Part shown: one piece after another, positions 2,097-22,091 of the stretch
How the letters are laid out: each line of letters opens with the position of its first letter
Numbering within the stretch: position 1 is the first letter of the stretch
From: Sulfitobacter sp. DFL-14
GTDB lineage: Bacteria; Pseudomonadota; Alphaproteobacteria; Rhodobacterales; Rhodobacteraceae
Length of the DNA stretch: 64,000 bases
Direction: 5' to 3'
Assembly: GCF_003335585.1 (NCBI RefSeq)
Contig: NZ_QBFD01000046.1
Coordinates: 1,131,412 to 1,195,411 of the forward strand
Translations under genes and position numbers: made by a program
Notes under the pieces: generated by a model
The model's database searches: none
What the model was told of the DNA's origin: nothing
Seen by the model: only the letters and a program-made list of their open reading frames with translations

Positions 2097-2111
2097 TAGA
2101 GGAGAACCGAG

Positions 2112-2477: not shown

Positions 2478-2500
2478 TCCGCGCCAGTCAGAAATTTCAA

Positions 2501-2535
2501 AAGGCCCCCGCAGCGATGCGGGGGCCTTTTTGTTT
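2501..2535 (+). terminator. Rho-independent terminator after rplT
   Basis: The stem GGCCCCCGC / GCGGGGGCC with a short CAGCGAT-type loop is followed by TTTTTGTTT. It lies 25 bases after the rplT stop codon and closes the rpmI-rplT operon. Confidence 0.9.
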
Positions 2536-2634
2536 GTGGCAGGTTCAGCATGGGCGGCACCGGCTGCGCTGCCGCCGGTTTCCGTGCCGCAGGGGGCAGG
2601 GCGCGTTATAGGGGCCGCGCACCAGCGTTGCGGC

Positions 2635-3222: not shown

Positions 3223-3238
3223 GGTGATTCCTTGTAAT

Positions 3239-3305
3239 TGACCGTGGTCATTAATTGCTAGCGGTCAAAATGACCGCGGTCAATAATCAAATTTGACCGC
3301 GGTCA
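3239..3305. promoter_or_regulatory. Array of three TGACCGyGGTCA palindromes, putative TetR operators
   Basis: Twelve-base palindromes TGACCGTGGTCA (3239-3250), TGACCGCGGTCA (3271-3282) and TGACCGCGGTCA (3294-3305) lie between the divergent oxidoreductase and TetR genes. A degenerate fourth site, TGCTAGCGGTCA, is at 3256-3267 (9 of 12 matches). The perfect symmetry and the placement between a regulator and its neighbour point to operator sites for the TetR protein. Confidence 0.82.
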
Positions 3306-3327
3306 GGGATCGTGCCACATCTGGACC

Positions 3328-3906: not shown

Positions 3907-3984
3907 AGCCGCTTCACGCCCCGCATGGCTTGTATTCAGCGGCCAGTCTGCTAGCACGACCCCGACAGTTGAAGGACGATTGCG

Positions 3985-5058
3985 ATGGACGATCTCAAGC
4001 AGAAATACCTTTCCCGGATTGCCGATGCGGCGGACGAGGCCTCCCTCGAAGACATCCGTGTCACCGCCGTGGGCAAGAAGGGTGAGATCGCGCTGAAAAT
4101 GCGCGAGCTGGGCAAGATGACCCCGGAAGAACGGCAAGTGGCCGGTCCCGCGCTGAATGCCCTGAAGGACGAGATCAACTCCGCCCTCGCGGCCAAGAAG
4201 GCGGCGCTGGGCGACGCGGCGCTGAACGAACGCCTGCGCAGCGAATGGCTGGATGTGACCTTGCCCACCCGCGCCCGGCGGCAGGGCACGATCCACCCGA
4301 TCAGCCAGGTGACCGAGGAACTGACGGCGATTTTTGCCGAGATGGGCTTCTCCGTCGCGGAAGGGCCGCGCATCGACACCGACTGGTACAATTTCGACGC
4401 GCTCAACATTCCCGGCCATCACCCGGCACGGGCCGAGATGGACACCTTCTATATGGCGCGCGCGGAAGGCGACAACCGCCCGCCACATGTGCTGCGCACC
4501 CATACCTCCCCGGTGCAGATCCGCACGATGGAAGCGCAGGGCGCGCCGCTGCGCATCATCTGCCCCGGCGGCGTCTATCGCGCGGATTACGACCAGACCC
4601 ATACGCCGATGTTCCACCAGGTCGAGGGGCTGGCGATTGACCGCGATATCTCCATGGCGAACCTCAAGTGGGTGCTTGAGGAATTCTTTGCCGCGTTTTT
4701 CGAGATCGACGGGATCAAGACCCGCTTTCGCGCGTCGCATTTCCCCTTCACCGAACCCTCGGCAGAGGTCGATATCCAGTGTTCCTGGGTCGATGGCCAG
4801 TTGCGCATCGGCGAGGGCGACGGCTGGCTGGAGGTGCTGGGCAGCGGCATGGTGCACCCGCATGTGCTGCGCTCTGGCGGGGTGGATCCGGATCAGTGGC
4901 AGGGCTTTGCCTTTGGCATGGGGATCGACCGCATCGCGATGTTGAAATACGGCGTGCCGGACCTGCGGGCCTTCTTTGATTCAGACCTGCGCTGGCTGCG
5001 GCACTATGGGTTCGCCTCGCTGGACCAGCCGAACCTGCACGGCGGGTTGAGCCGGTAA
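3985..5058 (+). CDS. pheS: Phenylalanine-tRNA ligase alpha subunit
   Basis: A 357-residue class II aminoacyl-tRNA synthetase subunit which, with PheT, forms the (alpha-beta)2 enzyme charging tRNA-Phe. It has the N-terminal coiled-coil arm (about residues 1-90), motif 2 region [21 protein letters not shown] and motif 3 [14 protein letters not shown] near the C terminus. GAAGGACG precedes the ATG. Length matches the family. pheT lies 476 bases downstream, separated by a small YrhK-domain gene rather than directly adjoining, which is common in this bacterial group. Confidence 0.97.
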
Positions 5059-5067
5059 GGAGGCCAT

Positions 5068-5355
5068 ATGAAGCTGTTTCACCGCGACAGGCGAAACGAC
5101 TCAGCGGCGCACCGCCGGATCTATGCCGGGTTCGAGATCGCCTATACCATGGTCGACTTCCTGGCGGCCCTGATGTTCATCATCGGCTCGGTGATGTTCT
5201 TTTCAGACGCCTGGGTGACAACTGGCACCTCGCTGTTCCTGATCGGGTCATTCTTTTTTGCCGCCAAGCCCACCCTGCGCCTGTGGCGCGAGGTGAAATT
5301 ATACCGCCTTGGCGATATGGAAGACCTGGCCCGGCGCGCAGGCGGCGAAGTCTGA
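5068..5355 (+). CDS. YrhK-domain small membrane protein
   Basis: A 95-residue protein with two predicted membrane segments: about residues 28-46 (DFLAALMFIIGSVMFF) and 50-66 (TGTSLFLIGSFFFAAKP), followed by a basic cytoplasmic tail LRLWREVKLYRLG. This matches the YrhK-like domain, whose function is unknown. It starts 9 bases after pheS behind AAGGAGG and so is almost certainly cotranscribed with it. Confidence 0.8.
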   Translation: MKLFHRDRRNDSAAHRRIYAGFEIAYTMVDFLAALMFIIGSVMFFSDAWVTTGTSLFLIGSFFFAAKPTLRLWREVKLYRLGDMEDLARRAGGEV

Positions 5356-5425
5356 CGCAACCCGGGACCGGGGGCGCGATCACCCTGAGGGGGCCGCGGG
5401 TGGCCGGCCGGGCTTTGGTGTATTT

Positions 5426-5478
5426 GAAGAACAATGAAAGCGGGGTGTCGCGCGCCAAAAGCGGGGCTTTTCATTGAA
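5426..5478. repeat. Imperfect hairpin in the pheS-yrhK to pheT gap
   Basis: AATGAAAGCG near 5432 is matched by GCTTTTCATT near 5466-5475, giving an imperfect stem across a GC-rich loop. It lies just after a TGTATTTGAAGAACAATGAA-type sequence. It may be a weak terminator or a small dispersed palindrome; there is no T-run. Confidence 0.35.
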
Positions 5479-5534
5479 ACCCCCGGCGTTTGCGGATACC
5501 GAACCCGTGAGACGCATGCACGAGGAACCGCGCG

Positions 5535-7934
5535 ATGAAATTCACCCTGTCCTGGCTGAAAGAGCATCTGGATACGACCGCTTCGGTCGATGAAATCACC
5601 TATGCCCTGACCGATCTGGGTCTGGAAGTCGAAGGGGTCGAGGACCGCGGCGCGAAACTGGCGGATTTTACCATCGGTTACGTGAAATCTGCGGAAAAGC
5701 ATCCCGATGCGGACCGCCTGAACGTCTGTCAGGTCGAAACCGACGAAGGTGTGACCCAGATCATCTGCGGCGCGCCCAATGCGCGTGCAGGCATCACCGT
5801 GGTGGTCGCCAAGCCCGGCGTCTATGTGCCCGGCATCGACACGACCATCGGCGTGGGCAAGATCCGCGGCATCGAGAGCTATGGCATGATGGCCTCCGAG
5901 CGCGAGATGGAGCTGAGCGAGGAACACGACGGCATCATCGAACTGCCCTCGGGCGAGGTGGGGCAGCGGTTTGTCGACTGGCTGGCCGAGAATGACCCGG
6001 CCAAGGTTGATCCGGTGATCGAGATCGCCATCACCCCCAACCGCCCCGATGCGCTGGGCGTGCGCGGCATCGCCCGCGATCTGGCGGCACGCGGTCTGGG
6101 CAAGCTGAAACCGCGCGACGTGGATGCGGTGGAGGGTGCCTTCCCCTGTCCGGTCACCGTCAGCATCGACGACGACACCCGCGATCAATGCCCGGTGTTT
6201 TACGGGCGCATGATCCGGGGCGTGACCAATGGTCCGTCACCTGCCTGGCTGCAGGACCGCCTGCGCGCCATCGGGTTGCGGCCGATCTCCTTCCTTGTGG
6301 ATGTCACGAACTTCTTTACCTATGACCGCAACCGCCCGCTGCACGTCTTTGACGTGGACAAGATTGCGGGCAATGCGCTGCGGGTGCATCGTGCCCTGGG
6401 CGGCGAGACGATAATGGCGCTCGACGACAAGGAATATACATTCGAAGCGGGCATGACCCTGATTTCCGACGCCGACGGCGTGGAAAGCATTGGCGGCGTC
6501 ATGGGCGGCGCCGGGTCGGGTTGCACGGCGGAGACCACCAATGTCTTCATCGAGGCGGCCTATTTCGACCCCGTCCGCACCGCCTATACGGGCCGCGCGC
6601 TCAAGATCAATTCCGATGCGCGTTACCGGTTCGAGCGCGGGATCGACCCGGCCTGGACGCCCTATGGCATCGAACATGCCACCCGGATGATCCTGGATCA
6701 CGCGGGCGGCGAGCCCTCCGAGGTTGTGGTGGCGGGGCAGATCCCGGACACGGCCCGCGCCTACAAGCTGGACGCGGCAAGGGTGCAGTCGCTGGTCGGC
6801 ATGACCATCCCCGAAAGCGATCAGCGCCAGACGCTGACATCGCTGGGCTTCCGGCTGGAAGGCAACATGGCCCATGTGCCGACATGGCGGCCCGATGTTC
6901 AGGGAGAGGCGGACCTGGTCGAAGAGGTGGCCCGTATCGCCTCGCTCACCAAGTTGGAGGGGCGGCCGCTGCCGCGCCTGACCGCAGGTGTGCCGCGCCC
7001 CGTGCTGTCTCCGACACAGCGCCGGATCGGGGCGGCGCGCCGCGCCACCGCCGCGCTGGGGTACAACGAATGCGTCTCCTACAGCTTCATTGACCAGGCC
7101 TCTGCCGCGCTTTTCGGGGGCGGTACGGATGCGACCCGGCTGGAAAATCCGATCTCTGCCGACATGAGCCACATGCGCCCGGCGCTGTTGCCGGGATTGC
7201 TGCAGGCGGCCGCGCGCAACCAGGCGCGGGGCTATGCGGATATGGCGCTGTTCGAGGTCGGCCCGGCCTTTCAGGGGGGCGAGCCGGGCGAACAGGCCGA
7301 GATGATCACCGGGCTGCTGATCGGGCGCACCGGACCCAAGGATGTGCATGGCGCGTCCCGGCCCGTGGATGTCTTTGACGTCAAGGCGGATGCGGAGGCG
7401 GTGCTGTCCGCAATGGGCGCCCCGGCGCGGGTGCAGATCCTGCGCGGCGCGCCGGATTACTGGCATCCGGGCCGGCATGGCATGATCTGCCTTGGCCCGA
7501 AAAAGATCCTGGGCATCTTCGGTGAAGTGCATCCGAAAATCCTGACCGCGATGGACGTGAAGGGGCCTGCCATGGCCTTTACCATCTGGCCTGATGAAAT
7601 CCCGCTGCCGCGCAAGGCCGGGGCCACCCGTGCCGCGCTTCAGATCAGCGATCTGCAGGCGGTTGAGCGTGACTTTGCCTTTGTGGTGGATGCCGGGGTC
7701 GAGGCGCTGACGCTGGTCAATGCGGCGCTGGGCGCGGACAAGTCGCTGATCGAGGATGTGCGCGTCTTCGACGAATTCATCGGCGGATCGCTGGGCGAGG
7801 GTAAAAAGTCGCTCGCGATCACGGTGCGGATGCAGCCCAGCGAAACCACATTGAAAGACGCGGATATCGAGGCGGTCGGGGCCAAGGTGATCGAAAAGGT
7901 CACCAAGGCCACGGGCGGCGTTCTGCGCGGCTAA
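5535..7934 (+). CDS. pheT: Phenylalanine-tRNA ligase beta subunit
   Basis: A 799-residue protein, normal length for the bacterial beta subunit. In order: N-terminal EMAP-like tRNA-binding domain (about residues 40-150), the B3/B4 editing region (about 205-395, with LKINSDARYRFERGIDP), B5 domain (about 400-470), the catalytic-like core and a C-terminal ferredoxin-fold anticodon-binding domain starting near SDLQAVERDFAFVVD (about 705-799). It hydrolyses mischarged Tyr-tRNA-Phe and binds tRNA. GAGGAACCGCGCG precedes ATG. A YtoQ gene follows after 10 bases and is probably cotranscribed. Confidence 0.97.
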   Translation: MKFTLSWLKEHLDTTASVDEITYALTDLGLEVEGVEDRGAKLADFTIGYVKSAEKHPDADRLNVCQVETDEGVTQIICGAPNARAGITVVVAKPGVYVPGIDTTIGVGKIRGIESYGMMASEREMELSEEHDGIIELPSGEVGQRFVDWLAENDPAKVDPVIEIAITPNRPDALGVRGIARDLAARGLGKLKPRDVDAVEGAFPCPVTVSIDDDTRDQCPVFYGRMIRGVTNGPSPAWLQDRLRAIGLRPISFLVDVTNFFTYDRNRPLHVFDVDKIAGNALRVHRALGGETIMALDDKEYTFEAGMTLISDADGVESIGGVMGGAGSGCTAETTNVFIEAAYFDPVRTAYTGRALKINSDARYRFERGIDPAWTPYGIEHATRMILDHAGGEPSEVVVAGQIPDTARAYKLDAARVQSLVGMTIPESDQRQTLTSLGFRLEGNMAHVPTWRPDVQGEADLVEEVARIASLTKLEGRPLPRLTAGVPRPVLSPTQRRIGAARRATAALGYNECVSYSFIDQASAALFGGGTDATRLENPISADMSHMRPALLPGLLQAAARNQARGYADMALFEVGPAFQGGEPGEQAEMITGLLIGRTGPKDVHGASRPVDVFDVKADAEAVLSAMGAPARVQILRGAPDYWHPGRHGMICLGPKKILGIFGEVHPKILTAMDVKGPAMAFTIWPDEIPLPRKAGATRAALQISDLQAVERDFAFVVDAGVEALTLVNAALGADKSLIEDVRVFDEFIGGSLGEGKKSLAITVRMQPSETTLKDADIEAVGAKVIEKVTKATGGVLRG

Positions 7935-11162: not shown

Positions 11163-12281
11163 TTACGCCTTCAGAGCGAGCCGGGGTGACAACACGTCGA
11201 TCCCCAGCGCCTTGCCCACCGCATGATAGGTCAGTTTGCCCGCATGTACGTTCAACCCGTTCAGCAGATGCTCATCCTCTTCGCAGGCCTGACGCCAGCC
11301 CTTGTTGGCCAGCGCCAGCATGAAGGGCATGGTCGCATTGCCAAGCGCGATGGTCGAAGTGCGCGCAACGGCACCCGGCATGTTGGCCACGCAGTAATGC
11401 ATGATCCCGTCGACCTCATAGACCGGATCCTGGTGCGTGGTTGCCTTTGAAGTCTCGAAACAACCGCCCTGGTCAATCGCCACATCGACAAGCGCCGCAC
11501 CGGGTTTCAGCTCGGACAGCTGCGCGCGGGAAATCAGCTTGGGCGCCGCAGCACCGGGGATCAGCACCGCGCCGATGATCATGTCGGCCTGACGCGCCAG
11601 CTCCATGGTGTTCTGGGCAGAGGCATAGGCAGTCTTGAAGGTGCCGCCGAAGACATCGTCGAGATAGCGCATCCGGGGCAGGGACCGGTCCAGCACGGTC
11701 ACATCCGCGCCCATGCCCGCCGCGATCCGCGCGGCATGGGTGCCGACAACACCGCCGCCGATCACCATGACGCGGGCAGGATTCACACCGGGCACACCGC
11801 CCATCAGCACGCCGCGTCCGCCGTTGGCCTTTTGCAGGGTCCATGCGCCAACCTGCGGTGCCAGACGGCCCGCAACCTCGGACATTGGTGCCAGCAGGGG
11901 CAGGCCGCCCATGCGGTCGGTTACGGTTTCATAGGCGATGCAGGTCGCGCCGGAGGCCATCAGGTCGCGTGTCTGCTCGGGATCGGGGGCAAGGTGAAGA
12001 TAGGTGAACAGCACCTGGCCCTCGCGCAGCATCTTGCGCTCCACGGCCTGCGGCTCCTTGACCTTCACGATCATGTCGGCGGCGGCGAAAACCTCCTTCG
12101 CGGTCCCGATGATCTGCGCACCGGCGGCCTGGTAATCGCTGTCCTCGAAGCCCGCGCCGATGCCCGCGCCGGTCTCGATCAGGACCTCATGTCCCGCTGT
12201 TGTCGCCTCCAGCGCCGCCGAGGGGGTCAGCCCAACGCGGAATTCCTGCGGTTTGATCTCTTTCGGGCAGCCGATTTTCAT
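11163..12281 (-). CDS. ald: Alanine dehydrogenase
   Basis: A 372-residue NAD-dependent enzyme interconverting L-alanine and pyruvate plus ammonia. It begins [20 protein letters not shown], the conserved start, and has the Rossmann NAD motif [24 protein letters not shown] (about residues 168-192) plus a C-terminal segment with [22 protein letters not shown] at 12281 is preceded by AGGGGAC; longer starts would add an unrelated tail. It is divergent from an Lrp/AsnC gene, the usual arrangement in which that regulator activates ald in response to alanine. Confidence 0.96.
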
Positions 12282-12418
12282 GATGAGTCCCCTGTTGATT
12301 GATTGGCGGAAGCATGGGCAATTCTGCACGCAAAGGGACACGAATAAAGGTGGCGCGACCGGCATTAATCAGGATATCATTGCGCCATGATCAACATATA
12401 CGCGAAAGTCTTGCGCCG

Positions 12419-12877
12419 ATGAGTCTCGACGAGATTGATCGCCGTATCCTCAGGGCACTTCAACGCAACGGGCGGATGTCAAACGCCGAACTGTCCGACG
12501 ATGTCAATCTGTCCCCCTCCGCCTGCCACCGCAGGGTCCAGCGGATGGAGCGGACGGGCTATATCAGCGATTATGTCGCCCTGCTTAACCCCCGGAAACT
12601 CGGTGTGCCGACAACGGTCTTTGTGGAGATTACCCTGCAAGGCCAGGCCGATGAAACACTGGACGCATTCGAGAAATCCGTCGCGCGGATTCCCGACGTG
12701 CTGGAATGCCACCTGATGGCGGGCTCTGCCGATTACCTGTTGAAAGTGGTGGCCGAGAACACCGAAGATTTCGCGCGCATCCACCGCCAGCATCTCGCAC
12801 GGCTGCCGGGGGTGCAGACCATGCAGTCCAGCTTTGCCCTGCGCACCGTCTGCAAAACCACCGCGCTGCCTGTCTGA
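12419..12877 (+). CDS. Lrp/AsnC family transcriptional regulator
   Basis: A 152-residue protein: N-terminal winged helix with LDEIDRRILRALQRNGRMSN and LSPSACHRRVQRMERTGYI (about residues 3-55), then a RAM/AsnC ligand-binding domain with DVLECHLMAGSADYLLKVV (about 93-112). Such proteins form octamers that respond to amino acids. It is divergent from ald across 137 bases, so it is most likely the alanine-responsive regulator of ald. The following TSUP permease gene starts one base after its stop codon. Confidence 0.9.
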   Translation: MSLDEIDRRILRALQRNGRMSNAELSDDVNLSPSACHRRVQRMERTGYISDYVALLNPRKLGVPTTVFVEITLQGQADETLDAFEKSVARIPDVLECHLMAGSADYLLKVVAENTEDFARIHRQHLARLPGVQTMQSSFALRTVCKTTALPV

Positions 12878-13624
12878 ATGCAGATTGAACCCGAGATGGG
12901 CCTGCTGGTGGCCGCCGTGTTCCTGTTCGCCGGTACGATCAAGGGTGTGATCGGGCTGGGCCTGCCGACGGTCGCGATGGGGATCATGGGCCAGTTCCTG
13001 CCGCCCACCACTGCCCTGGCGATCATCGTGCTGCCGCTTCTGGTGTCGAATGTCTGGCAGGTGATCCGCGCCGGGGCGGGGCTGGGCACGCTGCGGCGCT
13101 ACTGGCTGTTGATGGCACTGCTGGGCGGATCGCTCTGGGTGACGACGTTCTTCACCGCGTCGGTCTCGCCCGAATTCCTGCTCGGCGCTATCGGGGCTGC
13201 CATCGTTGTCTTTGCCGTCTCGAACCTGCTGGGGACTCCGCCACCGGTCCCCGACCGCTGGGACCGGACAGCACAGGCGATCACGGGGATCAGCGCGGGC
13301 GTGCTGGGGGGCTTTACCGGCATCTGGTCACCGCCCTTTGTGACCTACCTCATCGCCCGGCGCACCGACGCGGATGAATTCGTGCGCGCCTCGGGCCTCT
13401 TTATCCTGATCGGGGGCGTGCCCCTTGCCATCGGCTTCTGGCAGTCGGGCATCCTGAACGGGACCACCGGGCCGCTTTCTGCGGCAATGATCGTGCCGAC
13501 GCTGGCGGGCTTTACCCTGGGTGAGGTGCTGCGCCGCCGGATGAGCGCCAGGGCCTTCCGCCGTGTGTTCCTGTGGCTTTTCCTGCTGATGGGGCTGAAC
13601 CTGCTGCGCCGCGCGCTGTTCTGA
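12878..13624 (+). CDS. TSUP family permease (TauE/SafE)
   Basis: A 248-residue inner-membrane protein with about seven to eight hydrophobic segments and the duplicated TSUP motif: FAGTIKGVIGLGLPTVAMGI near residue 15 and GVLGGFTGIWSPPFVTYLI near residue 145. Relatives export sulfite, sulfoacetate or other small organosulfur or carboxylic anions. The ATG directly follows the stop of the Lrp/AsnC gene, so the two are translationally coupled. The substrate is unknown; the context could suggest an amino-acid-derived anion, but that is speculative. Confidence 0.88.
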   Translation: MQIEPEMGLLVAAVFLFAGTIKGVIGLGLPTVAMGIMGQFLPPTTALAIIVLPLLVSNVWQVIRAGAGLGTLRRYWLLMALLGGSLWVTTFFTASVSPEFLLGAIGAAIVVFAVSNLLGTPPPVPDRWDRTAQAITGISAGVLGGFTGIWSPPFVTYLIARRTDADEFVRASGLFILIGGVPLAIGFWQSGILNGTTGPLSAAMIVPTLAGFTLGEVLRRRMSARAFRRVFLWLFLLMGLNLLRRALF

Positions 13625-13654
13625 CCGTCGCGGGTCCCGGACGGCAGGCCAAAG

Positions 13655-13687
13655 AAAACCCCCGCAGCGCGGGGCTGCGGGGGTTCT
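13655..13687. terminator. Bidirectional terminator between the TSUP gene and rpsU
   Basis: AACCCCCGCAG / CTGCGGGGGTT forms a strong stem with a GCGCGGGG-type loop, flanked by A-rich sequence on the left and T residues on the right. It serves the plus-strand TSUP gene and the minus-strand rpsU gene, which converge here. Confidence 0.85.
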
Positions 13688-13711
13688 GATTTCCGGCATC
13701 GCGGGAATGAT

Positions 13712-13918
13712 TTACATCATGCCTTCGCGTTGCGCTTTTTTGCGTGCCAGCTTGCGGGCACGGCGGATAGCTTCAGCTTTCTCGCGCGCTTTTTTCTCGG
13801 AGGGTTTCTCGAAATGTTGCTTGAGCTTCATTTCACGGAACACGCCTTCGCGCTGGAGCTTTTTCTTCAGAGCCCGGAGGGCCTGATCGACATTGTTGTC
13901 GCGAACACTAACCTGCAT
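13712..13918 (-). CDS. rpsU: 30S ribosomal protein S21
   Basis: A 68-residue highly basic protein starting [20 protein letters not shown], then [20 protein letters not shown] and a lysine/arginine-rich C-terminal helix. S21 helps mRNA selection at the small-subunit decoding region. AAAGGTGG lies ahead of the ATG. It has its own promoter and ends at a bidirectional terminator. Confidence 0.97.
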
Positions 13919-13971
13919 GTGGTTGTCACCACCTTTCTAGGAAAAAGTTGCAAGGATTTGCAGGAAATGGC

Positions 13972-14000
13972 CCTATATCAATCTTGAAACTGTTTGTCGA
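13972..14000 (-). promoter_or_regulatory. Probable rpsU promoter
   Basis: Read on the minus strand, TCGACA (14000-13995) and TATAGG (13977-13972) are 17 bases apart, about 55 bases before the rpsU ATG. The -35 box abuts the first unit of the tandem repeats ahead of the COQ9 gene. Confidence 0.55.
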
Positions 14001-14070
14001 GTCCGACAGGGCCGCAATTAGAAGGTATGTCCGACAGGACTGCAATTAGAGAGTACGTCCGACAGGACAG
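14001..14070 (+). repeat. Three tandem 28-bp repeats with a GTCCgacaGGAC core
   Basis: Units begin at 14001, 14029 and 14057, exactly 28 bases apart. Each starts GTCCGACAGG; units one and two continue with a GCAATTAGA block, and the third runs into the COQ9 ribosome binding site. Units two and three hold a 12-base palindrome, GTCCGACAGGAC. They occupy the divergent promoter region of rpsU and the COQ9 gene. Confidence 0.85.
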
Positions 14071-14087
14071 CAAAAAAGGAGCGCAAG

Positions 14088-14786
14088 ATGACCAAGGCAG
14101 CAACCGACCCCAGGCTGAAACTGCTGGATGCGGCGTTGCCGCATGTGCCCTTCGATGGCTGGTCGGAGGTGACCTTCAAGGCCGCCATCGACGAAAGCGA
14201 TGTGGACCCGACAGTGGCGCGCGCGGTCTGTCCGCGCGGCGCGGTCGATCTGGCGGTGGCCTATCACCGGCAGGGCGACGCCGCGATGCTGGCCGCGCTG
14301 AAATCCGAAAACCTTGAAGACCTGCGTTTCCGCGACCGGGTGGCACGGGCGGTCCGCCTGCGGCTGGAACAGGTGCAGGACAAGGAACTGGTCCGGCGGG
14401 GCACCACCCTGTTTGCCCTGCCGCAATATGCGCCCGATGGCGCGAAACTGATCTGGGAAACCTGCGATGCCATCTGGGACGCGCTGGGCGACACTTCCGA
14501 GGATGTGAACTGGTATACCAAACGGGCCACCCTGGGCGGTGTCTATTCCTCCACCGTCTTGTACTGGCTGGGCGACGACAGCGAGGGCCACATGCGCACC
14601 TGGGCCTTCCTGGACCGGCGCGTCGACAATGTGATGCAGATCGAAAAGCTCAAGGCGCAGGTGAACCAGAGCCCGACCCTGAGCAAGCTCATGGCAGGGC
14701 CGAACTGGCTGTTGAGCCACATCAAGGCCCCCAGCCGCTTTCCGAAGGGTGATCTGCCAGGGTTATGGACCGCGCCGCGGGATTGA
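14088..14786 (+). CDS. COQ9 family protein (ubiquinone biosynthesis)
   Basis: A 232-residue protein related to COQ9, a TetR-fold lipid-binding protein that presents ubiquinone precursors to COQ7 in mitochondria; COQ9 is typical of alphaproteobacteria and eukaryotes. The C-terminal half holds the conserved stretch YTKRATLGGVYSSTVLYWLGD and FLDRRVDNVMQIEK. AAAAAAGGAGCGCAAG precedes the ATG. It is divergent from rpsU, with tandem repeats between them. A role in ubiquinone synthesis or membrane docking is inferred from the family. Confidence 0.9.
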   Translation: MTKAATDPRLKLLDAALPHVPFDGWSEVTFKAAIDESDVDPTVARAVCPRGAVDLAVAYHRQGDAAMLAALKSENLEDLRFRDRVARAVRLRLEQVQDKELVRRGTTLFALPQYAPDGAKLIWETCDAIWDALGDTSEDVNWYTKRATLGGVYSSTVLYWLGDDSEGHMRTWAFLDRRVDNVMQIEKLKAQVNQSPTLSKLMAGPNWLLSHIKAPSRFPKGDLPGLWTAPRD

Positions 14787-14944
14787 TTACAGCGCCCCGC
14801 CTTTAACCTGATACAAGTTTAAGGCAGGGCACTTGCCTCAGGAACTCGGGCCAAAACGGGTGCAATCTGCCGCGGGTGCCTTTACACCCCGGCCAGACAT
14901 GCTAGGCGGTAGCGCCTTGATCCCAGCCGGAACAGACCCGCCTC

Positions 14945-15664
14945 ATGCCGCTGATAGATGCACAAAACATCACATATGCGCCGAATGGCGCGCCTGTGTT
15001 GTCCGATGTAACCCTGGTCAGCGACGCCCGCCGCATCGGCGTGGTGGGCCGCAACGGATCGGGCAAGACCTCCTTCGCCCGTGTGCTCGCAGGGCTGGTC
15101 GCGGCGGACAAGGGACAGGTCCGTATCGCCGGTGCCCGGGTGGCAAAGGACCGCAAGGCGGCACTGGGGGCCGTGGGCATCCTGTTCCAGAACCCCGACC
15201 ACCAGATCATCTTTCCCACCGTGGAAGAGGAAATCGCCTTTGGCCTCGCGCAGATGGGCCTTGCCCCTGCGGAGGTGGCGCAACAGGTGCAGGCGATCCT
15301 CGGGCAGTTCAACAAGGGTCATTGGGCGCGCGCCGCGATCCATCAGCTTTCGCAGGGCCAGCGGCAGCTGGTCTGCCTGATGTCGATCCTGGCGATGCGC
15401 CCGCAGGTGATCCTGCTGGACGAACCATTTGCCGGGCTCGATATTCCCACCGCCATGCATCTGTCCCGGGTATTGGAAGGGCTGGAGGCGACCTTGGTCC
15501 ATATCACCCATGACCCCGACATGGTGCGCAGCTATGATCATGTTCTCTGGCTGGAAGGCGGCGCGGTGATGCAGCAGGGCAGGCCACAGGACGTGCTGCA
15601 GGCCTTCGAGACACGTATGGTGGAACTGGGGACGGCTGATGATCTCTCTGACCTCGCCGGTTGA
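14945..15664 (+). CDS. bioM: Biotin ECF transporter ATPase BioM
   Basis: A 239-residue ABC ATPase of the energy-coupling-factor type that powers biotin uptake with BioN and BioY. Walker A is GRNGSGKTS (about residues 37-45), the Q-loop LFQNPDHQIIFPT is typical of ECF ATPases, the signature is QLSQGQRQLVCLMSILA, Walker B is VILLDEPFAGLD and the switch histidine is in HITHDPD. bioN overlaps its last 26 bases and bioY follows, giving the standard bioMNY order. Confidence 0.93.
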   Translation: MPLIDAQNITYAPNGAPVLSDVTLVSDARRIGVVGRNGSGKTSFARVLAGLVAADKGQVRIAGARVAKDRKAALGAVGILFQNPDHQIIFPTVEEEIAFGLAQMGLAPAEVAQQVQAILGQFNKGHWARAAIHQLSQGQRQLVCLMSILAMRPQVILLDEPFAGLDIPTAMHLSRVLEGLEATLVHITHDPDMVRSYDHVLWLEGGAVMQQGRPQDVLQAFETRMVELGTADDLSDLAG

Positions 15665-16235
15665 AACCCGTGCCCATGGCTGGCCCGCCGGGGCCAAGCT
15701 GGCGGCGCTCTGTGCTGCGACGGTGGTGTTGTTCGCCACCAATGCGCTGCTGTGGCACGGGGTCTTCCTGGCGCTGACCCTGGGGCTTTACGCCCTGCCG
15801 GGGGCGCTGTTCCTGCGCACCGGGATCGTCCGGCTCAGGCCGCTGTGGATCTTTGCGGCGGTGATCCTGCTGTGGCATCTGGTCACTGCGGATCTTCGGG
15901 CCGGGCTGGTGATCGTGATGCGCATGATGACTGCCGTGGCACTGGCCAACCTGGTCACCATGACCACGCGCCTCAGCGACATGATGGGGGTCGTGCGCTG
16001 GCTGCTCACCCCGTTTCGCGCCTTTGGCCTGCGCACCGATCTGGTGGAGCTGGCAATGGCGCTGGTGATCCGCTTCACCCCCGTCCTGGCCGACAAGGGC
16101 CGCATGCTGGCACTGGCCTGGCGCGCCCGTGCGGTCCGCCGCCTGGGCTGGCGCATCATCACGCCCTTCGCGGTACTTGCGATAGACGATGCGGAACATG
16201 TGGCCGACGCCCTGCGCGCGCGGGGCGGGTTGTAG
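15639..16235 (+). CDS. bioN: Biotin ECF transporter transmembrane protein BioN
   Basis: A 198-residue T-component with four to five membrane segments and the coupling region near VIRFTPVLADKGRMLALAWRARAVRR, corresponding to the A-R-G/A-R-A style motifs that contact the ATPase. It overlaps bioM by 26 bases, indicating coupled translation. Without BioM and BioN, BioY can act alone as a slower biotin transporter; the presence of all three suggests a complete ECF importer. Confidence 0.9.
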   Translation: MISLTSPVETRAHGWPAGAKLAALCAATVVLFATNALLWHGVFLALTLGLYALPGALFLRTGIVRLRPLWIFAAVILLWHLVTADLRAGLVIVMRMMTAVALANLVTMTTRLSDMMGVVRWLLTPFRAFGLRTDLVELAMALVIRFTPVLADKGRMLALAWRARAVRRLGWRIITPFAVLAIDDAEHVADALRARGGL

Positions 16236-16295
16236 CTTGACGGTTTCGCCCTCAGCCCCTACCGCTGCGGGGTCGGAATTCAAAGGACCTATGCC

Positions 16296-16841
16296 ATGGA
16301 ACGCTCACTGACCCTCATCGCCCTTTTTGCGGCCCTGATCGCAGCTCTTGGTCTGATCCCCAAGTTCACCCTGGGCTTCGGCGTGCCGATCACGGCGCAA
16401 ACGCTGGGCGTGATGCTCTGCGGTACGGTTCTGGGCGCACGGCGCGGCGGTCTTGCCGTGCTGTTGTTCATTGCCCTGGTGGCACTTGGCCTGCCCCTGC
16501 TGGCAGGTGGGCGCGGCGGCCTCGGCGTCTTTGCGACACCCAGCACAGGCTTTCTGATCGGCTGGCCGGTCGGTGCCTTTGTCTGTGGCCTGATCATGGA
16601 GCGGAGCCGCCGCTTGCCGGTGGCATGGGCCGCCGGTATCGCCTCGGTGCTGGGCGGAATCGTGGTGATCTATGTCTTTGGCGTCGCGGGACTGATGCGC
16701 GCGCTGGACAAGAGCGCGCTTGAGTCCCTGGGGCTGGTGACCGCCTTCATCCCGGGGGATCTGATCAAGGCCGTCCTCGCAGGGCTGATCACCGCCGGTC
16801 TGGCACGGGCGCGCCCCGCAAGCCTGCTGTCACGCGGATAA
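16296..16841 (+). CDS. bioY: Biotin-binding S component BioY
   Basis: A 181-residue membrane protein with six hydrophobic segments and the BioY signatures GVPITAQTLGVMLCGTVLGARRGG and GRGGLGVFATPSTGFLIGWP. It captures biotin and couples with BioMN. AAAGGACCTATGCC precedes the ATG, and the gap to bioN is 60 bases. Its 3' end overlaps the thiolase-like gene by 12 bases, tail to tail. Confidence 0.95.
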   Translation: MERSLTLIALFAALIAALGLIPKFTLGFGVPITAQTLGVMLCGTVLGARRGGLAVLLFIALVALGLPLLAGGRGGLGVFATPSTGFLIGWPVGAFVCGLIMERSRRLPVAWAAGIASVLGGIVVIYVFGVAGLMRALDKSALESLGLVTAFIPGDLIKAVLAGLITAGLARARPASLLSRG

Positions 16842-17930
16842 CAACAGGGCTGTCCCGAGGCCGCCCGCGGCGGCAATCGCGGCCAGCCCGGTCCCGCCCG
16901 TCCGGCGCAGCGTATGGAACAGCCGCACGGCGTTGATCGCGCCGGAGGCCCCCACGGGATGCCCGCGCGCCAGCGCCCCGCCGCCGGTGTTGACGATCTG
17001 CGGATCAATCCCCGCACCGCGCACACAGGCGATGGCCTGCACCGCATAGGCTTCCATCACCTCGGCGGCCTGCAGGTCGCGCGGGGTTCTGCCGGCTGTG
17101 GCCAGCACATGTTCAATCGCGGCAACCGGGGCAAGGCCGGGCATATCCGGGGTGCCGCCGCGCGTCGCTCCGCCCAGGATTTCCTGCACAGGCGCGCGCA
17201 GCTGCCGCGCGGCCCGTTCCGACACCACAATGACAAATCCCGCGCCATCTGCGGCCACGGCGGTATTGGCTGTGGTGATGTCTCCGGTCAGAACCTTGGC
17301 ACGCCGGCATAAGGCGGGCCGCAGATCACGGGTAAAGGCATCCGCCGTCAGCCCCGCAACGGGAATGATCTCTCCGGCCACCGCTGCATGGGCGCGCGCC
17401 TTGGCATGGCTGGCCATGGCCCAGGCATCCTGCGCCTCACGGCCGATCGCCAGCAGGGCACCAAGGGCCTGAGCGGCCTCGGCCATGTCGGGGTCGCGGT
17501 CGGGCCAGGGGGTAAACTCTGCCTGCTCATAAGCCTCTGGCGCGCGGCCATCCGCAAAGCGCCGCAGGCGCAGGGGGCGGCGCGAGTAGCTTTCGACGCC
17601 ACCGGCCACAACCACATCCGCAGCCCCCGCCAGCACCATCTGCCGCGCCAGAACCACCGCATCCAGACCGCCCGCGCATTGGCGGTCGATGCTCAGCCCC
17701 GCCACCCGTTCGGGCAGACCGGCCGCCAGCGCCAGCACCCGCGCCGGGTTTCCACCCGCCCCCAGGGCATTGCTGACAATCAGCTCGTCGACATCCTCGG
17801 CGGTCAGCCCCGCCTGCGCCAGAACGGCGTTGATCACCGGCGCACCCAGTTCGTGCAGCGACAGGGCCGAGAGCGCGCCGTCACGCGGGGCCACCGCGCT
17901 GCGGCAGGCCGCTGCCAGATAGGCGCTCAC
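16830..17930 (-). CDS. Thiolase-like protein lacking two catalytic residues
   Basis: A 366-residue thiolase-fold protein. The acyl-accepting cysteine is present in DRQCAGGLDAV (C85), and the GGGALARGHPVGASG histidine (H324) is present. The NEAF-type asparagine is replaced by methionine (VMEAY, M292), and the second cysteine, normally in a GLATLCIGGG-type motif, is alanine (GLAAIAAAGG, A353). Ordinary thiolysis or Claisen condensation needs that cysteine, so this is probably an acyl-binding or altered enzyme. It starts with GTG overlapping the ligase stop codon (GTGA), so both come from one operon. Its neighbour is bioY. A role in making or salvaging a biotin precursor is speculative. Confidence 0.82.
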   Translation of the reverse strand: MSAYLAAACRSAVAPRDGALSALSLHELGAPVINAVLAQAGLTAEDVDELIVSNALGAGGNPARVLALAAGLPERVAGLSIDRQCAGGLDAVVLARQMVLAGAADVVVAGGVESYSRRPLRLRRFADGRAPEAYEQAEFTPWPDRDPDMAEAAQALGALLAIGREAQDAWAMASHAKARAHAAVAGEIIPVAGLTADAFTRDLRPALCRRAKVLTGDITTANTAVAADGAGFVIVVSERAARQLRAPVQEILGGATRGGTPDMPGLAPVAAIEHVLATAGRTPRDLQAAEVMEAYAVQAIACVRGAGIDPQIVNTGGGALARGHPVGASGAINAVRLFHTLRRTGGTGLAAIAAAGGLGTALLLSA

Positions 17931-19162
17931 GATCCGCCCTCCAGCAGGCGGGCCAGTTCGGCATGATCGGTCTTGCCCGACACCAACCGGGGCAAGTCAT
18001 CGAGAAAATGAACGCGCCGCGGCGCGACAAGCGGGCCAAAGCGACGCCTGCAGGCGTCGGTAACCGCGGCGCTCAGGCGCGGGTCCCTTGCCCCTTCGAG
18101 ACAGGCCACAAGCCGATGGCCACGCAACGCATCGGGCAGGGGCAGAACGGCACAGGCGGCCACGCCGGGCAGCTCGGTGATGAAATTCTCGACTTCCTCG
18201 GGATAGACGTTCTGATCCGCAATCGTGATCATCCGCGTCCTGCGCCCCTTGAGCCAAAGCAGCCCTTTCCCGTCCAGACGGCCCATTTCGCCGACAAAGA
18301 CGAAACCATCCCGCCGATGCGCCTCCGCCCCCGGCGCGCCGAGATAACCGTCAAACAGATAGGGGCTGCGCACCCAGACCTCGCCCACGCCGCCGGTGAT
18401 CTGCCCGGCCTCGTCCAGTATCCTCAGTGTCACCCCCGGATAGGCGGCGCCGACCGCGCCATCCGGCGTATCCGCCCCGCCAAGAGTGACAAAACTGGTC
18501 TCGGCGGCGCCATAGAACACATGCAGGGCGGCATTGGGGGCAAGCGGCCTGACGGCGGCGCGGCCCGTCGCCTGCAGCGGCCCCCCGCCGCAGAGGATCA
18601 GCCGCAGCGCCGGCAGGCGCTGGCCTTTTGCGGCACGGGAAAGGCGCAGCAGCTGCGTCGGCGTCGCATAAAGGATCCGCACCCCATGGCGCAGGCAGTG
18701 GGCGATCTGCGCACGGGGCGAAAGACTGTCGAGCACATGCACATCCGCGCCCAGATGCAGCCCCTCCAGGACACCATAGAGGGCCAGCGAATGGCTGAGC
18801 CTGCCCAGAACCGCGATGCTGTCCCCGGGCGCGATGCCGAAGATTGCCGCGTTCTGCGCGAAACTGGCGGTCCAGGAGTTCTGACTGCGCAGGATCGCCT
18901 TGGGCTGGCCCGTCGTGCCGCCGGTCAGCGTGACGAAATGGGTTGCGGGCACCTCGGCCCCGGTCAGCGGCGCGCCATCGTTCACGCAAAAGCTGCCCCG
19001 CGCTGCGATCTGCGCTGTCAGCCGGGTCAGGCAGGCCTCGGTTGGATGTGCCGGAATGCACAGGTCCGAAGGCACAGCCGCCACAGCGGGCCGCGCGATT
19101 TCCGCAGACCCGGCAAAGAGCCGGGCATCGGCATGCCAGGTGAACCTGTCCTGATCCGTCAT
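17927..19162 (-). CDS. Short AMP-dependent acyl-CoA synthetase/ligase
   Basis: A 411-residue class I adenylate-forming enzyme. Visible motifs are the P-loop FVTLTGGTTGQPKAIL (about residues 91-106), the adenine motif FYGAAETSFVTLGG, the ribose aspartate region and the C-terminal hinge DGKGLLWLKGRRTRMI with ADQNVYPEEVEN. It is about 100 residues shorter than typical acyl-CoA ligases, mainly at the N terminus. ATG at 19162 was chosen because homology begins there. It is translationally coupled to the thiolase-like gene and faces bioMNY. Pimelate or a fatty acid is a possible substrate, by analogy to bioY-linked ligases elsewhere; this is inference. Confidence 0.82.
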   Translation of the reverse strand: MTDQDRFTWHADARLFAGSAEIARPAVAAVPSDLCIPAHPTEACLTRLTAQIAARGSFCVNDGAPLTGAEVPATHFVTLTGGTTGQPKAILRSQNSWTASFAQNAAIFGIAPGDSIAVLGRLSHSLALYGVLEGLHLGADVHVLDSLSPRAQIAHCLRHGVRILYATPTQLLRLSRAAKGQRLPALRLILCGGGPLQATGRAAVRPLAPNAALHVFYGAAETSFVTLGGADTPDGAVGAAYPGVTLRILDEAGQITGGVGEVWVRSPYLFDGYLGAPGAEAHRRDGFVFVGEMGRLDGKGLLWLKGRRTRMITIADQNVYPEEVENFITELPGVAACAVLPLPDALRGHRLVACLEGARDPRLSAAVTDACRRRFGPLVAPRRVHFLDDLPRLVSGKTDHAELARLLEGGS

Positions 19163-19269
19163 GCGGTGTCTCTTGCTCCGGTGTTCCTGACCCTTGCGCA
19201 GAGTTATCGGGGTCGACGCGGCGCGCGCAAGACCTATGCTGAAACGCAAGCGATGTGAAAGGAATTCCG

Positions 19270-20256
19270 ATGAGTGACACAATGACTGCGATGGAGATCA
19301 CCAAACCCGGTGGTCCGGAGGTCCTGCAACCGGCCATCCGCCCGGTGCCCTTGCCTGCCCATGGGCAGGTGGTGATCAAGGTGGCCTATGCGGGGGTGAA
19401 CCGCCCCGATGCCCTGCAACGGGCCGGGATGTATGCACCGCCCCCCACGGCCAGTGACCTCCCGGGGCTGGAGGCTTCGGGCGAAGTCGTGGCGCTGGGA
19501 GAGGGCGTCAGCGGCATCGACCTGGGCGATCAGGTCTGCGCCCTGCTGCCCGGCGGCGGCTATGCCGAATATGTGGCCACCCCGGCCGCACATTGCCTGC
19601 CGGTGCCCGATGGCATGGGGCTGAAGGAAGCCGCCTGCCTGCCGGAGACCTTTTTCACCGTCTGGTCCAATGTCTTCATGCGGGGCGGGTTGAAGGCGGG
19701 CGAACGCTTCCTGGTGCATGGCGGCTCCTCCGGGATCGGGACAACGGCAATCCAGCTTGCCCATGCCTTTGGCGCGCGGGTCTTTGCCACGGCCGGCACG
19801 GACAAGAAATGTGCCGCCTGCATGGACCTTGGCGCCGAGGCGGCGATCAACTACCGCGACATGGATTTTGTGGATGTGCTGGAGGCGGAAGGCGGCGCCG
19901 ACCTCATTCTCGACATGGTGGGCGGCGATTACATCCCCCGCAACCTCAAGGCCCTGGCCCCGGATGGCCGCCTGGTGCAGATCGCCTTCCTGCAGGGGCC
20001 GAAGGTCGAGGTGAACTTTGCCATGCTTATGACCAAGCGGCTGACCATGACCGGATCGACCCTGCGCCCGCAGAACGACCTTGCCAAGGCACGGATTGCG
20101 CAGGAACTGCGCGAGGCGGTCTGGCCGCTGTTGTCGGCGGGGTGCGTGGCTCCGGTGATGGACAGCAGCTATCCCCTGGCCGAGGCCGCCGCCGCCCATG
20201 CGCGGATGGAAGGCAGCGGGCACATCGGCAAAATCGTGCTGGAGGTTGCCCCCTGA
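19270..20256 (+). CDS. NAD(P)H quinone oxidoreductase, MDR superfamily (PIG3-like)
   Basis: A 328-residue zinc-independent medium-chain reductase. GroES-like N-terminal domain with VKVAYAGVNRPDALQRAGMY (about residues 36-57), then a Rossmann domain with GERFLVHGGSSGIGTTAIQLAHAFGARVFATAGT (about 147-180) that binds NADPH, and the LDMVGGDYIPRNLKAL strand. It reduces quinones or enones. AAAGGAATTCCG precedes ATG 19270. It is divergent from the acyl-CoA ligase across about 107 bases and is followed by a strong terminator. Confidence 0.92.
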   Translation: MSDTMTAMEITKPGGPEVLQPAIRPVPLPAHGQVVIKVAYAGVNRPDALQRAGMYAPPPTASDLPGLEASGEVVALGEGVSGIDLGDQVCALLPGGGYAEYVATPAAHCLPVPDGMGLKEAACLPETFFTVWSNVFMRGGLKAGERFLVHGGSSGIGTTAIQLAHAFGARVFATAGTDKKCAACMDLGAEAAINYRDMDFVDVLEAEGGADLILDMVGGDYIPRNLKALAPDGRLVQIAFLQGPKVEVNFAMLMTKRLTMTGSTLRPQNDLAKARIAQELREAVWPLLSAGCVAPVMDSSYPLAEAAAAHARMEGSGHIGKIVLEVAP

Positions 20257-20470
20257 CCCAAAGGACGCGCTGACGCGCGACGCGATGCCCGGTGTCCGTG
20301 GCGTGCCTGAGCCCACCGCCGGTGAGGGCTTTTGCAGTGCCACCGTCGCGCAGGGATATTTGCCTGCCAAAAAGAGAGGGTAAGGGAATCTTAACCCTCA
20401 TCGGGCAGGTTGGTTCTGCGGTACAGGCGGGGACGCCGATGACCGTGCCAGAAAGAGAGCGTGGCTTTCC

Positions 20471-20508
20471 GGAAGGGGGAGGGGGCATGACGTCCCCTTC
20501 CTCTTTTT
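20471..20508 (+). terminator. Rho-independent terminator after the quinone oxidoreductase
   Basis: GGAAGGGG (20471-20478) pairs with CCCCTTCC (20494-20501), followed by TCTTTTT. It lies between two convergent genes, the oxidoreductase and RNase T2. Confidence 0.82.
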
Positions 20509-20548
20509 GGCTATAAATATCCATCCGACGCTGGCGACAGGTGCAAGG

Positions 20549-21196
20549 TCAGGGAATATTGCGCATGTGCGTGAACAGGGCATCATTCATCCGGCAATCT
20601 TTCACCACATCCTGCCCGCAGGGCACCGGATCGAGGGTCTTGCTCAGGCAGATCCGCGCCTCCTGAATGTGGCCAGCGCGGCAGGTGATGGTGATCCCGT
20701 CGGGCTCCAGCCCCGGATTGGCCTTGAGGAATGCCGCCTCCACCACCGAGGCGGGCAGGCGCACGTCCCGGGACAGCTTCCGAAACACCTCGGGCCGGCG
20801 GATTGTGCCATAGGCCTGCCGGGACAGCGCGTAATAATCGGCGGCGGACAACCCGCTGCAGCTTCCGTGTTTCTTCCATTGGTGCCAGGCCAGCCCGCTG
20901 GTGCCCATGATGTCGGCCATCGCCGCCGTCATCCCGCGCGTGGGTGGGCGCTGTGCGGTCTGGCAGAAGGCGGGATAACCGCGGTGAAACTGCGGCCAGA
21001 GGCCATGCAGAATCCACCCGTGGCCGGTGTCCCGCGCGCATTGCGGCGAGCGCCGCGCATCGCCCTCCAGTGCGCACCAGTTAGGCGACCAGCTCAGCGC
21101 CAGCACGTAATAGTCGAATTCACCGGCGCGTTCGCCCCCGGCACGCAGGGCGTTTGCACTGAAGAGCAGGGCGAGGATCAGGGCAAGCGCGCGCAT
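20549..21196 (-). CDS. Ribonuclease T2 family protein, secreted
   Basis: A 215-residue protein with a signal peptide (MRALALILALLFSANALRA, cleavage near residue 19). The first catalytic block HGLWPQ (residues 64-69) is intact. The second, usually HEWxKHG, reads HQWKKHGSC (105-113), so the glutamate is glutamine (Q106) while both histidines remain. Several cysteines, probably disulfide-bonded, fit periplasmic location. Family members cut RNA to 2',3'-cyclic nucleotides. ATG 21196 is preceded by AAAGGAAAG. Activity may be reduced or altered by the substitution. It is divergent from trcR. Confidence 0.88.
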   Translation of the reverse strand: MRALALILALLFSANALRAGGERAGEFDYYVLALSWSPNWCALEGDARRSPQCARDTGHGWILHGLWPQFHRGYPAFCQTAQRPPTRGMTAAMADIMGTSGLAWHQWKKHGSCSGLSAADYYALSRQAYGTIRRPEVFRKLSRDVRLPASVVEAAFLKANPGLEPDGITITCRAGHIQEARICLSKTLDPVPCGQDVVKDCRMNDALFTHMRNIP

Positions 21197-21323
21197 TGGG
21201 TCTTTCCTTTGATGTGCGGGACCACTATAAGGCGCCCGAGTTCCCCGACAATGGAAACCGTCCCGGCCCGCCGGGAAAGCCCTTTCAGGCGACGGGAAAG
21301 TTGCGACGTTCAGGAGAGATAAA

Positions 21324-22091
21324 ATGGCAAAACCGATTATGGCCAAGGCCACCGCCGTATGGCTGGTGGACAATACGACGATCAGCTTCAAGCAGATCGC
21401 CGATTTCGTCGGCCTGCATGAACTGGAAGTCCAGGGCATCGCGGACGGTGACGTGGCGCAGGGCGTCAAGGGGTTCGACCCGATTGCGAACAACCAGCTG
21501 ACCCAGGAAGAGATCGACGCGGCGCAGGACAATCCGCTGCACAAGATTCAGCTCAAGTTCAACGCCGCCGCCCAGGGCGAGGAAAAGCGTCGCGGCCCGC
21601 GGTACACCCCGCTCAGCAAACGTCAGGACCGTCCCGCCTCCATCCTGTGGCTGGTGAAATTCCACCCCGAGCTCAGCGATGGCCAGATCAGCAAGCTGGT
21701 GGGCACGACCAAACCCACAATCCAGGCGATCCGCGAGCGGACCCATTGGAACATCTCCAATATCCAGCCGATCGACCCGGTGGCACTGGGCCTGTGCAAA
21801 CAATCCGAACTGGACATGGCCGTTCAGAAGGCCGCAGCCAAGAAGGCCGCAGCCGGCGAAGTGATGAGCGATGACGAGCGCCGCAAGCTGGTCAGCACCG
21901 AACAGAGCCTCGGGATGGAAGCGGAGCCGAAGATTCCGACCGCGATCGAAGGGCTGGAAACCTTCACGCTCGGCGGTGACAACGACGACGAGGAAGAAGC
22001 AGACAGCAAGAGCGATTATTCCGACGCCGACAGCTTCTTCTCCCTGCCCGAAAGCGACGACGAGGACGAGGACGACACCTCGCGGTCCTGA
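21324..22091 (+). CDS. trcR: DUF1013 protein, cell-cycle transcriptional regulator TrcR
   Basis: A 255-residue protein of the DUF1013 family, found across alphaproteobacteria and studied as TrcR, a RNA-polymerase-associated cell-cycle factor. It starts MAKPIMAKATAVWLVDNTTI and contains a helix-turn-helix-like segment LSDGQISKLVGTTKPTIQAIRERTHWN (about residues 114-140). The last 45 residues are strongly acidic (DNDDEEEADSKSDYSDADS and following). A CAGGAGAGATAAA ribosome binding site precedes the ATG. It stands alone, divergent from the RNase gene. Confidence 0.9.
   Translation: MAKPIMAKATAVWLVDNTTISFKQIADFVGLHELEVQGIADGDVAQGVKGFDPIANNQLTQEEIDAAQDNPLHKIQLKFNAAAQGEEKRRGPRYTPLSKRQDRPASILWLVKFHPELSDGQISKLVGTTKPTIQAIRERTHWNISNIQPIDPVALGLCKQSELDMAVQKAAAKKAAAGEVMSDDERRKLVSTEQSLGMEAEPKIPTAIEGLETFTLGGDNDDEEEADSKSDYSDADSFFSLPESDDEDEDDTSRS

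Follow-up and report, generated by a model that had tools for sequence, protein, structure and literature searches.

The genes yhfU (bioY), yhfT and yhfS form a trio in Bacillus that is already known, as is its control by biotin, and in excerpts of two papers yhfT and yhfS appear as putative ligase and acetyltransferase genes of the Bacillus and Staphylococcus biotin regulons (PMC11089781, PMC6391492). Excerpted text of the second (PMC6391492) reports that BirA represses the Staphylococcus aureus yhfS-yhfT promoter in a biotin-dependent way, as measured with reporters in Escherichia coli, and that it binds there in gel-shift assays. The same three protein families as in Bacillus yhfU-yhfT-yhfS and S. 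aureus bioY / yhfS-yhfT are adjacent in a 64-kb stretch of DNA from Sulfitobacter sp. DFL-14, a member of the Rhodobacteraceae (this whole stretch is here termed the window). A gene for a YhfT-like, AMP-forming acyl-coenzyme A (CoA) ligase (17927-19162, minus strand) and one for a YhfS-like, thiolase-like protein (16830-17930, minus strand) converge there tail to tail with bioMNY (14945-16841, plus strand), the genes for an energy-coupling factor (ECF) biotin transporter; coordinates and strands bear out the convergence described in an initial annotation of the window. The locus differs from the Bacillus and S. aureus systems in that the pair converges with a complete bioMNY, no BirA-like site was found, the thiolase has also lost Asn316 and the ligase N-terminus is shortened. 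Tentatively, and with less than an even chance, the pair is read as the alphaproteobacterial form of a BioY-linked ligase-thiolase (YhfT-YhfS) module that would take up a shortened biotin, for instance bisnorbiotin, and lengthen it reductively by two carbons. The new elements are the loss of a catalytic cysteine, Cys378, in the linked thiolases, the extended operons described below, and a testable hypothesis for genes of open function.

The link of ligase and thiolase to biotin uptake is real and holds in two phyla. Among 149 genomes of the Rhodobacteraceae, that of the window included, the thiolase (counted at E<=1e-60) is present in 23, and in all 23 a ligase match directly adjoins it. A bioY gene lies within 5 kb of the pair in 20 of these 23 carriers: it is convergent and less than 1.5 kb away in 17, upstream and divergent in one, and upstream and co-directional in two. 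In the other three (G026, G059 and G125) bioY is not near the pair, and BioY is encoded on another contig. By simple arithmetic, two genes would come within 5 kb of each other in a 4-Mb genome at a rate of about 0.3% per genome; the linkage that the initial annotation proposed to look for in relatives is far above this. In eight of the 23 loci a gene of one sequence cluster stands between bioY and the pair, and where tested (L038) it is a nitroreductase (PF00881). A search of 398 Pseudomonadota genomes gave ten matches of at least 431 bits, with the next reaching only 375; all ten are from the class of Sulfitobacter, and seven from its family.

The pair is not restricted to one layout. The thiolase is also present, at E<=1e-60, in 23 plasmid records, and four of these were opened. 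On plasmids of Alloyangia pacifica, Marivivens sp. and Thioclava sp., ligase and thiolase converge with a nitroreductase gene and bioYNM, while on Paracoccus yeei plasmid pYEE4 bioY, ligase and thiolase all point in one direction. Wider regions were also inspected for 11 additional loci, of which seven are alphaproteobacterial. Two have the orders bioMNY-ligase-thiolase (L351) and bioN-bioY-ligase-thiolase (L352), each in one direction, and two others (L345, L346) the order bioY-thiolase-ligase; in six of the 11 neither bioY nor an ECF set was seen within 5 kb. The arrangement on opposite strands that the initial annotation described stands for the window, and alphaproteobacteria also have the co-directional form (pYEE4, L351, L352).

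That the pair might be a constant partner of bioY was ruled out: BioY is found in 127 of the 149 Rhodobacteraceae genomes (all 23 with the pair and 104 of the 126 without) and the thiolase in 23. Most BioY genomes of the family do without the pair.

Some features of individual loci can be recorded here. At L055 (8675-10789, genome G131) the thiolase gene is frameshifted with ligase, nitroreductase and bioMNY present, possibly through decay or an assembly error. At L042, L045 and L049 further shared neighbours (clusters c12, c13, c15 and c23) flank the pair, possibly as a conserved chromosomal block. In two genomes of genus g157 (L353 and L354, about 2000-5900) the pair is preceded not by bioY but by genes that by eye resemble those for a Fur-type regulator and a zinc ATP-binding cassette (ABC) importer with a histidine-rich tail.

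The Bacillota counterpart was approached in two ways. A BirA-box pattern scan of genome contigs gave at least 120 stretches, and among the 120 listed 37 hold bioY. When 199 genomes from the order that includes Bacillus halotolerans were searched with PRK06690, the YhfS family, 48 had a match reaching 400 bits or more. These 48, with G156 (Aneurinibacillus) and Listeria grayi, are the 50 Bacillota regions considered (three of the 50 genomes, G149, G150 and G156, entered through the BirA-box scan). As PRK06690 is unspecific in the Sulfitobacter genome, orthologues were traced by their linkage to bioY, by gaps between scores and by a tree. A bioY gene is within the cluster in 49 of the 50 (the exception is L251), and the order bioY-ligase-thiolase is found in 46, which agrees with the initial annotation in placing the same trio in Bacillota and an alphaproteobacterium; the ligase is divergent in L253 and L254 and downstream in L283.

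A BirA-box-like site with at most two mismatches is upstream in 48 of the 50 Bacillota loci, compared with 9 of 500 single-base shuffles. In Bacillota the module thus has the look of a biotin-regulon member, which supports the biotin control that had been attributed to the trio in Bacillus subtilis. Genes that are on when biotin is scarce fit with the making or saving of biotin, not with its degradation. This bears on whether the module could instead break down the biotin side chain by beta-oxidation under biotin excess. Ligase, hydratase, dehydrogenase and thiolase also serve beta-oxidation, but the BirA-box-like sites and the reported repression by biotin have the wrong sign for it, and neither the FabK-like gene of some operons nor the lost Cys378 is as it would require, so that breakdown is very improbable. 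Control of the window locus itself by BioR or BirA was considered and dropped, no sites having been found there or in its relatives.

Two occurrences of such sites can be singled out. In L251 (G301) a BirA-box-like site stands at the start of ligase-thiolase in a locus with no bioY, so biotin control may also be aimed at the pair by itself. BirA-box-like sites adjoin bioY in two contigs from archaea (Methanohalophilus and Methanosarcinaceae; L093, 4385-4415; L109, 2975-3005).

Excerpts on thiolase chemistry assign the role of nucleophile to Cys89, the oxyanion hole to Asn316 and His348, and the role of base to Cys378 (PMC3406046, PMC4595758), the last acting in the Claisen reaction of acetyl-CoA (PMC3406046, in extract). 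The window protein has the domains of canonical acetyl-CoA acyltransferases (Zoogloea ramigera type, TIGR01930), the nucleophile Cys89 and the GHP His348. However, it lacks Cys378 and Asn316, and near the acyl pocket MPG stands in place of the VMG motif. It had been taken as an ordinary thiolase, which does not hold for a protein that has kept only two of the classical set of four catalytic residues. Counts were taken from a single alignment of 94 rows: 22 from Rhodobacteraceae, 50 from Bacillota and 22 ordinary thiolases (rows were picked by sequence score and not by neighbours, L. grayi excepted, and the frameshifted L055 was left out). The nucleophile is Cys85 in the window (codon 17676-17678, minus strand, as are the other codons given here), and cysteine fills this position in every row of each group (22/22, 50/50 and 22/22). 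His324 (16959-16961), the equivalent of His348, is histidine in 94/94 rows. At the place of Asn316 is Met292 (17055-17057), NEAF reading MEAY; this position is Met in 22/22 Rhodobacteraceae rows, Asn in 49 and Ile in one of the 50 Bacillota rows, and Asn in 22/22 ordinary thiolases. The place of the base, in CxG, is taken by Ala353 (16872-16874), and here the Rhodobacteraceae rows have Ala (19) or Pro (3), those of Bacillota Gly (49) or, in L. grayi, Cys (1), and the ordinary thiolases Cys (22/22). The loss of Cys378 is shared between the window thiolase and its Bacillus-group relatives (L187, L188 and L282).

Loss of the base cysteine goes with the company of a ligase in a further set of loci. 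Two phylum-wide searches gave 59 loci, of which six have no readable thiolase. Among the 53 readable thiolases, 12 are without Cys378, and a ligase match is present in the 4-kb locus of all 12 (five of these, L286, L287, L289, L315 and L320, repeat loci already counted). In contrast, the loci of the 41 that keep Cys378 include none with a bioY match, and weak ligase matches in five. Since Asn316 is kept, with Gly at position 378, in the alphaproteobacterial L317, L318 and L319 (the last from the Rhodobacteraceae), its loss is not general.

In a 65-row tree, for which O_L011 and R_L056 were dropped and 22 of the 50 Bacillota rows retained, the Cys378-less rows of Rhodobacteraceae and Bacillota are on one side of a branch with support 98/98, and L. 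grayi is on the other. The window thiolase, which also has both the loss of Cys378 and the adjoining ligase and bioY, groups with the YhfS proteins of the Bacillus order apart from ordinary thiolases, though with few outgroups. In an earlier 95-row tree the branch of O_L011 was very long, and two changes were needed for each group. The simple reading would be a single origin of the Cys378-less thiolases, if the root lies among the ordinary thiolases; long branches are a caveat.

With both Cys378 and Asn316 lost, condensation itself is in doubt. The protein may, alternatively, act in biotin-linked acyl transfer or trapping, where the ligase product would be biotinyl-CoA or some other acyl-CoA, and Cys85 would hold the acyl group and pass it on or release it with no carbon-carbon chemistry. 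The pattern of residues agrees with this (the equivalents of Cys89 and His348 kept in every row, Cys378 and, in the Rhodobacteraceae rows, Asn316 lost), as do the presence of ligase and thiolase only at the window locus and the 23 of 48 Bacillus-order loci with neither MaoC nor short-chain dehydrogenase/reductase (SDR) genes nearby. Acyl transfer is nevertheless rather unlikely: it leaves the MaoC, SDR and FabK-like genes of related operons unexplained and, as biotin protein ligase activates biotin already, what would be gained is doubtful. A thiolase fold with other chemistry has a precedent in the Sal / Ltp2 steroid aldolases, which have MaoC/DUF35 partners and act on CoA esters with bulky rings (excerpt of PMC12329534). 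In Sal, however, Gly replaces the nucleophilic cysteine, while the group of the window thiolase keeps the nucleophile and has lost the other cysteine.

Reductive partners are found in a part of the Bacillota loci. MaoC-like genes are present as FAS1_DH-like in 17/50 and as MaoC-like in 18/50, and a FabG-kind SDR in 17/50 (these families were named on locus L240). The fullest sets are in L344 (genome G376), with the order ligase, thiolase, MaoC, MaoC, SDR, two ECF ATPases, ECF T component and FabK-like gene (TIGR03151, 278 bits), and in L284 of L. grayi, with BirA box, bioY, ligase, thiolase, a short gene without family, a MaoC-like gene, SDR and a FabK-like gene (TIGR03151, 162 bits). Judged from their gene content, these extended operons look like a nearly complete cast for one reductive acyl-CoA elongation, set beside ECF uptake genes in cells that lack bioB; that the FabK-like genes provide enoyl reduction is a guess. 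In L. grayi, genes for an ABC importer and one that by eye resembles a gene for a ModD/NadC-type enzyme end immediately ahead of the BirA box (L284, 119-1560; L078, 1350-4559).

The likeness of the FabG-, HadAB- and FabK-like genes to fatty-acid enzymes also agrees with a response to biotin shortage, in which the biotin-dependent acetyl-CoA carboxylase is starved and the module activates and extends external fatty acids. The biotin control of S. aureus yhfST (PMC6391492, in excerpt) is in line with such a response, as are the occurrence of the thiolase in genomes both with and without bioB and the absence of the pair from many bioY loci. But without Cys378 a condensation with acetyl-CoA, which would bypass the carboxylase, is the reaction least to be expected, and the constant company of the S component BioY is not required. 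A role in fatty-acid supply is therefore held to be unlikely.

The biotin synthesis genes speak against the function first suggested for the pair, which is to activate or produce pimelate or a different biotin precursor, such as a fatty acid. In the Sulfitobacter genome (99.99% complete) there is no bioB at E<=1e-60, and bioB is absent from 21 of the 23 Rhodobacteraceae carriers of the pair, Sulfitobacter included (it is present in 20 of the 149 genomes of the family). It is also absent from 7/7 further alphaproteobacterial carriers, L. grayi and G376, and present in G530, G563, G527 and G156. A bioF above the curated cut-off was found in none of 27 genomes, that of Sulfitobacter among them, though two bioB-positive ones are also without, so the cut-off may be strict; weaker bioF-like matches in 25 of the 27 are presumably other enzymes of that fold. 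Lacking bioB, and bioF at the curated score, Sulfitobacter could not turn pimelate into biotin along the known pathway, and activation of pimelate there is ruled out for that pathway. For precursor supply in general speaks that the thiolase carriers of the Bacillus order have bioB more often than the remaining genomes (38/48 versus 89/151, p 0.015). There is also a like idea in BioZ, an enzyme of the thiolase superfamily which makes the pimeloyl precursor from glutaryl-CoA in other alphaproteobacteria by one two-carbon extension. However, BioZ serves de novo synthesis and requires bioF, A, D and B, and the missing bioB of Sulfitobacter and of most Rhodobacteraceae carriers makes a precursor role improbable. 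In the Rhodobacteraceae themselves there is no association (bioB in 2/23 with the pair versus 18/126 without, p 0.74). That the pair might be a speciality of auxotrophs is not borne out by the statistics of either group.

For the module proposed at the outset, the extension of a shortened biotin, the following course may be envisaged. BioMNY would import a biotin-like acid, and the ligase would form its CoA thioester. The thiolase-fold enzyme would load the acyl group on Cys85 and add two carbons. As Cys378 is lost, there would be either a malonyl-CoA donor or no condensation at all, and decarboxylation of malonyl-CoA is the more likely source compared with acetyl-CoA (ketoacyl synthases use malonyl-CoA with loss of CO2). 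The keto group would then be reduced, dehydrated and reduced again. For these later steps, some Bacillota operons may provide dedicated MaoC, SDR and FabK-like enzymes; in Sulfitobacter, since only ligase and thiolase are at the locus, the enzymes would come from elsewhere in the cell. The building direction is favoured because biotin represses and because the partners are FabG- and FabK-like. Bisnorbiotin is the first product of biotin beta-oxidation and is two carbons shorter, so one round on it would regenerate biotin. Substrate, carbon donor, direction and the source of the missing steps in Sulfitobacter are all inferred.

Taken further, this would be a vitamin salvage in which BioY imports bisnorbiotin and a dedicated one-round set, like that of fatty-acid synthesis, rebuilds the side chain in Bacillota and Alphaproteobacteria, auxotrophs included. 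The set would comprise the ligase, a Cys378-less decarboxylating condensing thiolase, a FabG-like SDR, a MaoC pair and a FabK-like or nitroreductase-like enoyl reductase. Such a pathway is possible but speculative.

Several results weigh against the extension of a shortened biotin. At the window locus neither a MaoC, SDR or FabK-like partner was seen nor the nitroreductase that adjoins bioY in 8/23 loci of the family. The near-full gene set is found in two loci only, and of these L344 has no bioY, while the MaoC-like gene of L. grayi (E 1.2e-4) is under the Pfam cut-off; neither of the FabK-like genes reaches the 453 bits that TIGR03151 sets as cut-off, and both also match nitronate monooxygenase (PF03060). 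Cys378 is gone from the window thiolase and 49/50 Bacillota rows, with Asn316 lost in addition in 22/22 Rhodobacteraceae rows, and it is the thiolase of the near-full L. grayi operon that keeps Cys378. Among the 120 BirA-box stretches listed only L078, from L. grayi, has bioY, ligase and thiolase together, and in seven of the 11 further regions, L344 (with ECF genes present) among them, bioY was not seen within 5 kb. The bioB statistics of the Bacillus order and of the Rhodobacteraceae belong here too. The best BirA-like matches at the window have six mismatches before the ligase gene and five before bioM, the same as in shuffles. The palindrome TTATCTATAA, which is taken to be the BioR consensus, was not found with at most one mismatch before the ligase gene (23 loci), bioM (21) or bioY (20). 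Literature searches, in which few subscription papers were covered, turned up by title no report of bacterial growth on bisnorbiotin, and nothing on the loss of Cys378, on extension by MaoC, SDR and FabK, or on a part of these genes in salvaging shortened biotin.

The carriers that lack bioB, the loss of the base cysteine and the relatives with most of an elongation cycle together narrow the question on yhfT and yhfS, and turn an old unknown into a simple test of growth on bisnorbiotin. Extension, if confirmed, would add a pathway to those known for vitamin salvage. It would matter for the marine Rhodobacterales, since an excerpt of PMC9561691 reports that most of these are without biotin synthesis genes.

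The individual genes of the locus can be described briefly. The ligase has 411 amino acids, an ATG start, domains PF00501 and PF13193 and, as read from the sequence, the ATP-binding loop TGGTTGQPKA (18896-18925, minus strand). Its best NCBIfam family is PRK07638 with 205 bits, against 152 for the next (a lead of 53 bits), though this is below the curated cut-off of 518 and does not by score make it a YhfT member; the match starts at profile position 145 of 487, the N-terminal region being shortened. The thiolase-like protein has 366 amino acids and domains PF00108 and PF02803. It reaches 256.7 bits against TIGR01930, above the cut-off of 240.55, and 221.5 bits against PRK06690, under the curated cut-off of 498 and so short of YhfS membership; six other thiolases of the genome outscore it there. 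Its gene begins with GTG and shares 4 bp with the end of the ligase gene, and its 3′ end overlaps that of bioY by 12 bp; the start and stop codons have been verified. The short stretch between the ligase gene and a divergent quinone oxidoreductase gene (19163-19269) is, from its position, likely to be the promoter region of the pair. No Rfam match at gathering thresholds was found in 12000-22000 of the window.

All three components of the BioMNY ECF biotin transporter are encoded together, and nothing in the transporter is unusual. They are, on the plus strand, bioM for the ATPase (14945-15664; PF00005, and TIGR04520 with 167 bits, below the cut-off of 315), bioN for the T component of the CbiQ family (15639-16235; PF02361, E 5.6e-7), which overlaps bioM, and bioY for the biotin-binding S component (16296-16841; PF02632, E 8.9e-35). 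Directly upstream of bioM is a COQ9-family gene (TIGR02396, 14088-14786), and the same is the case in a genome of the same genus (L035).

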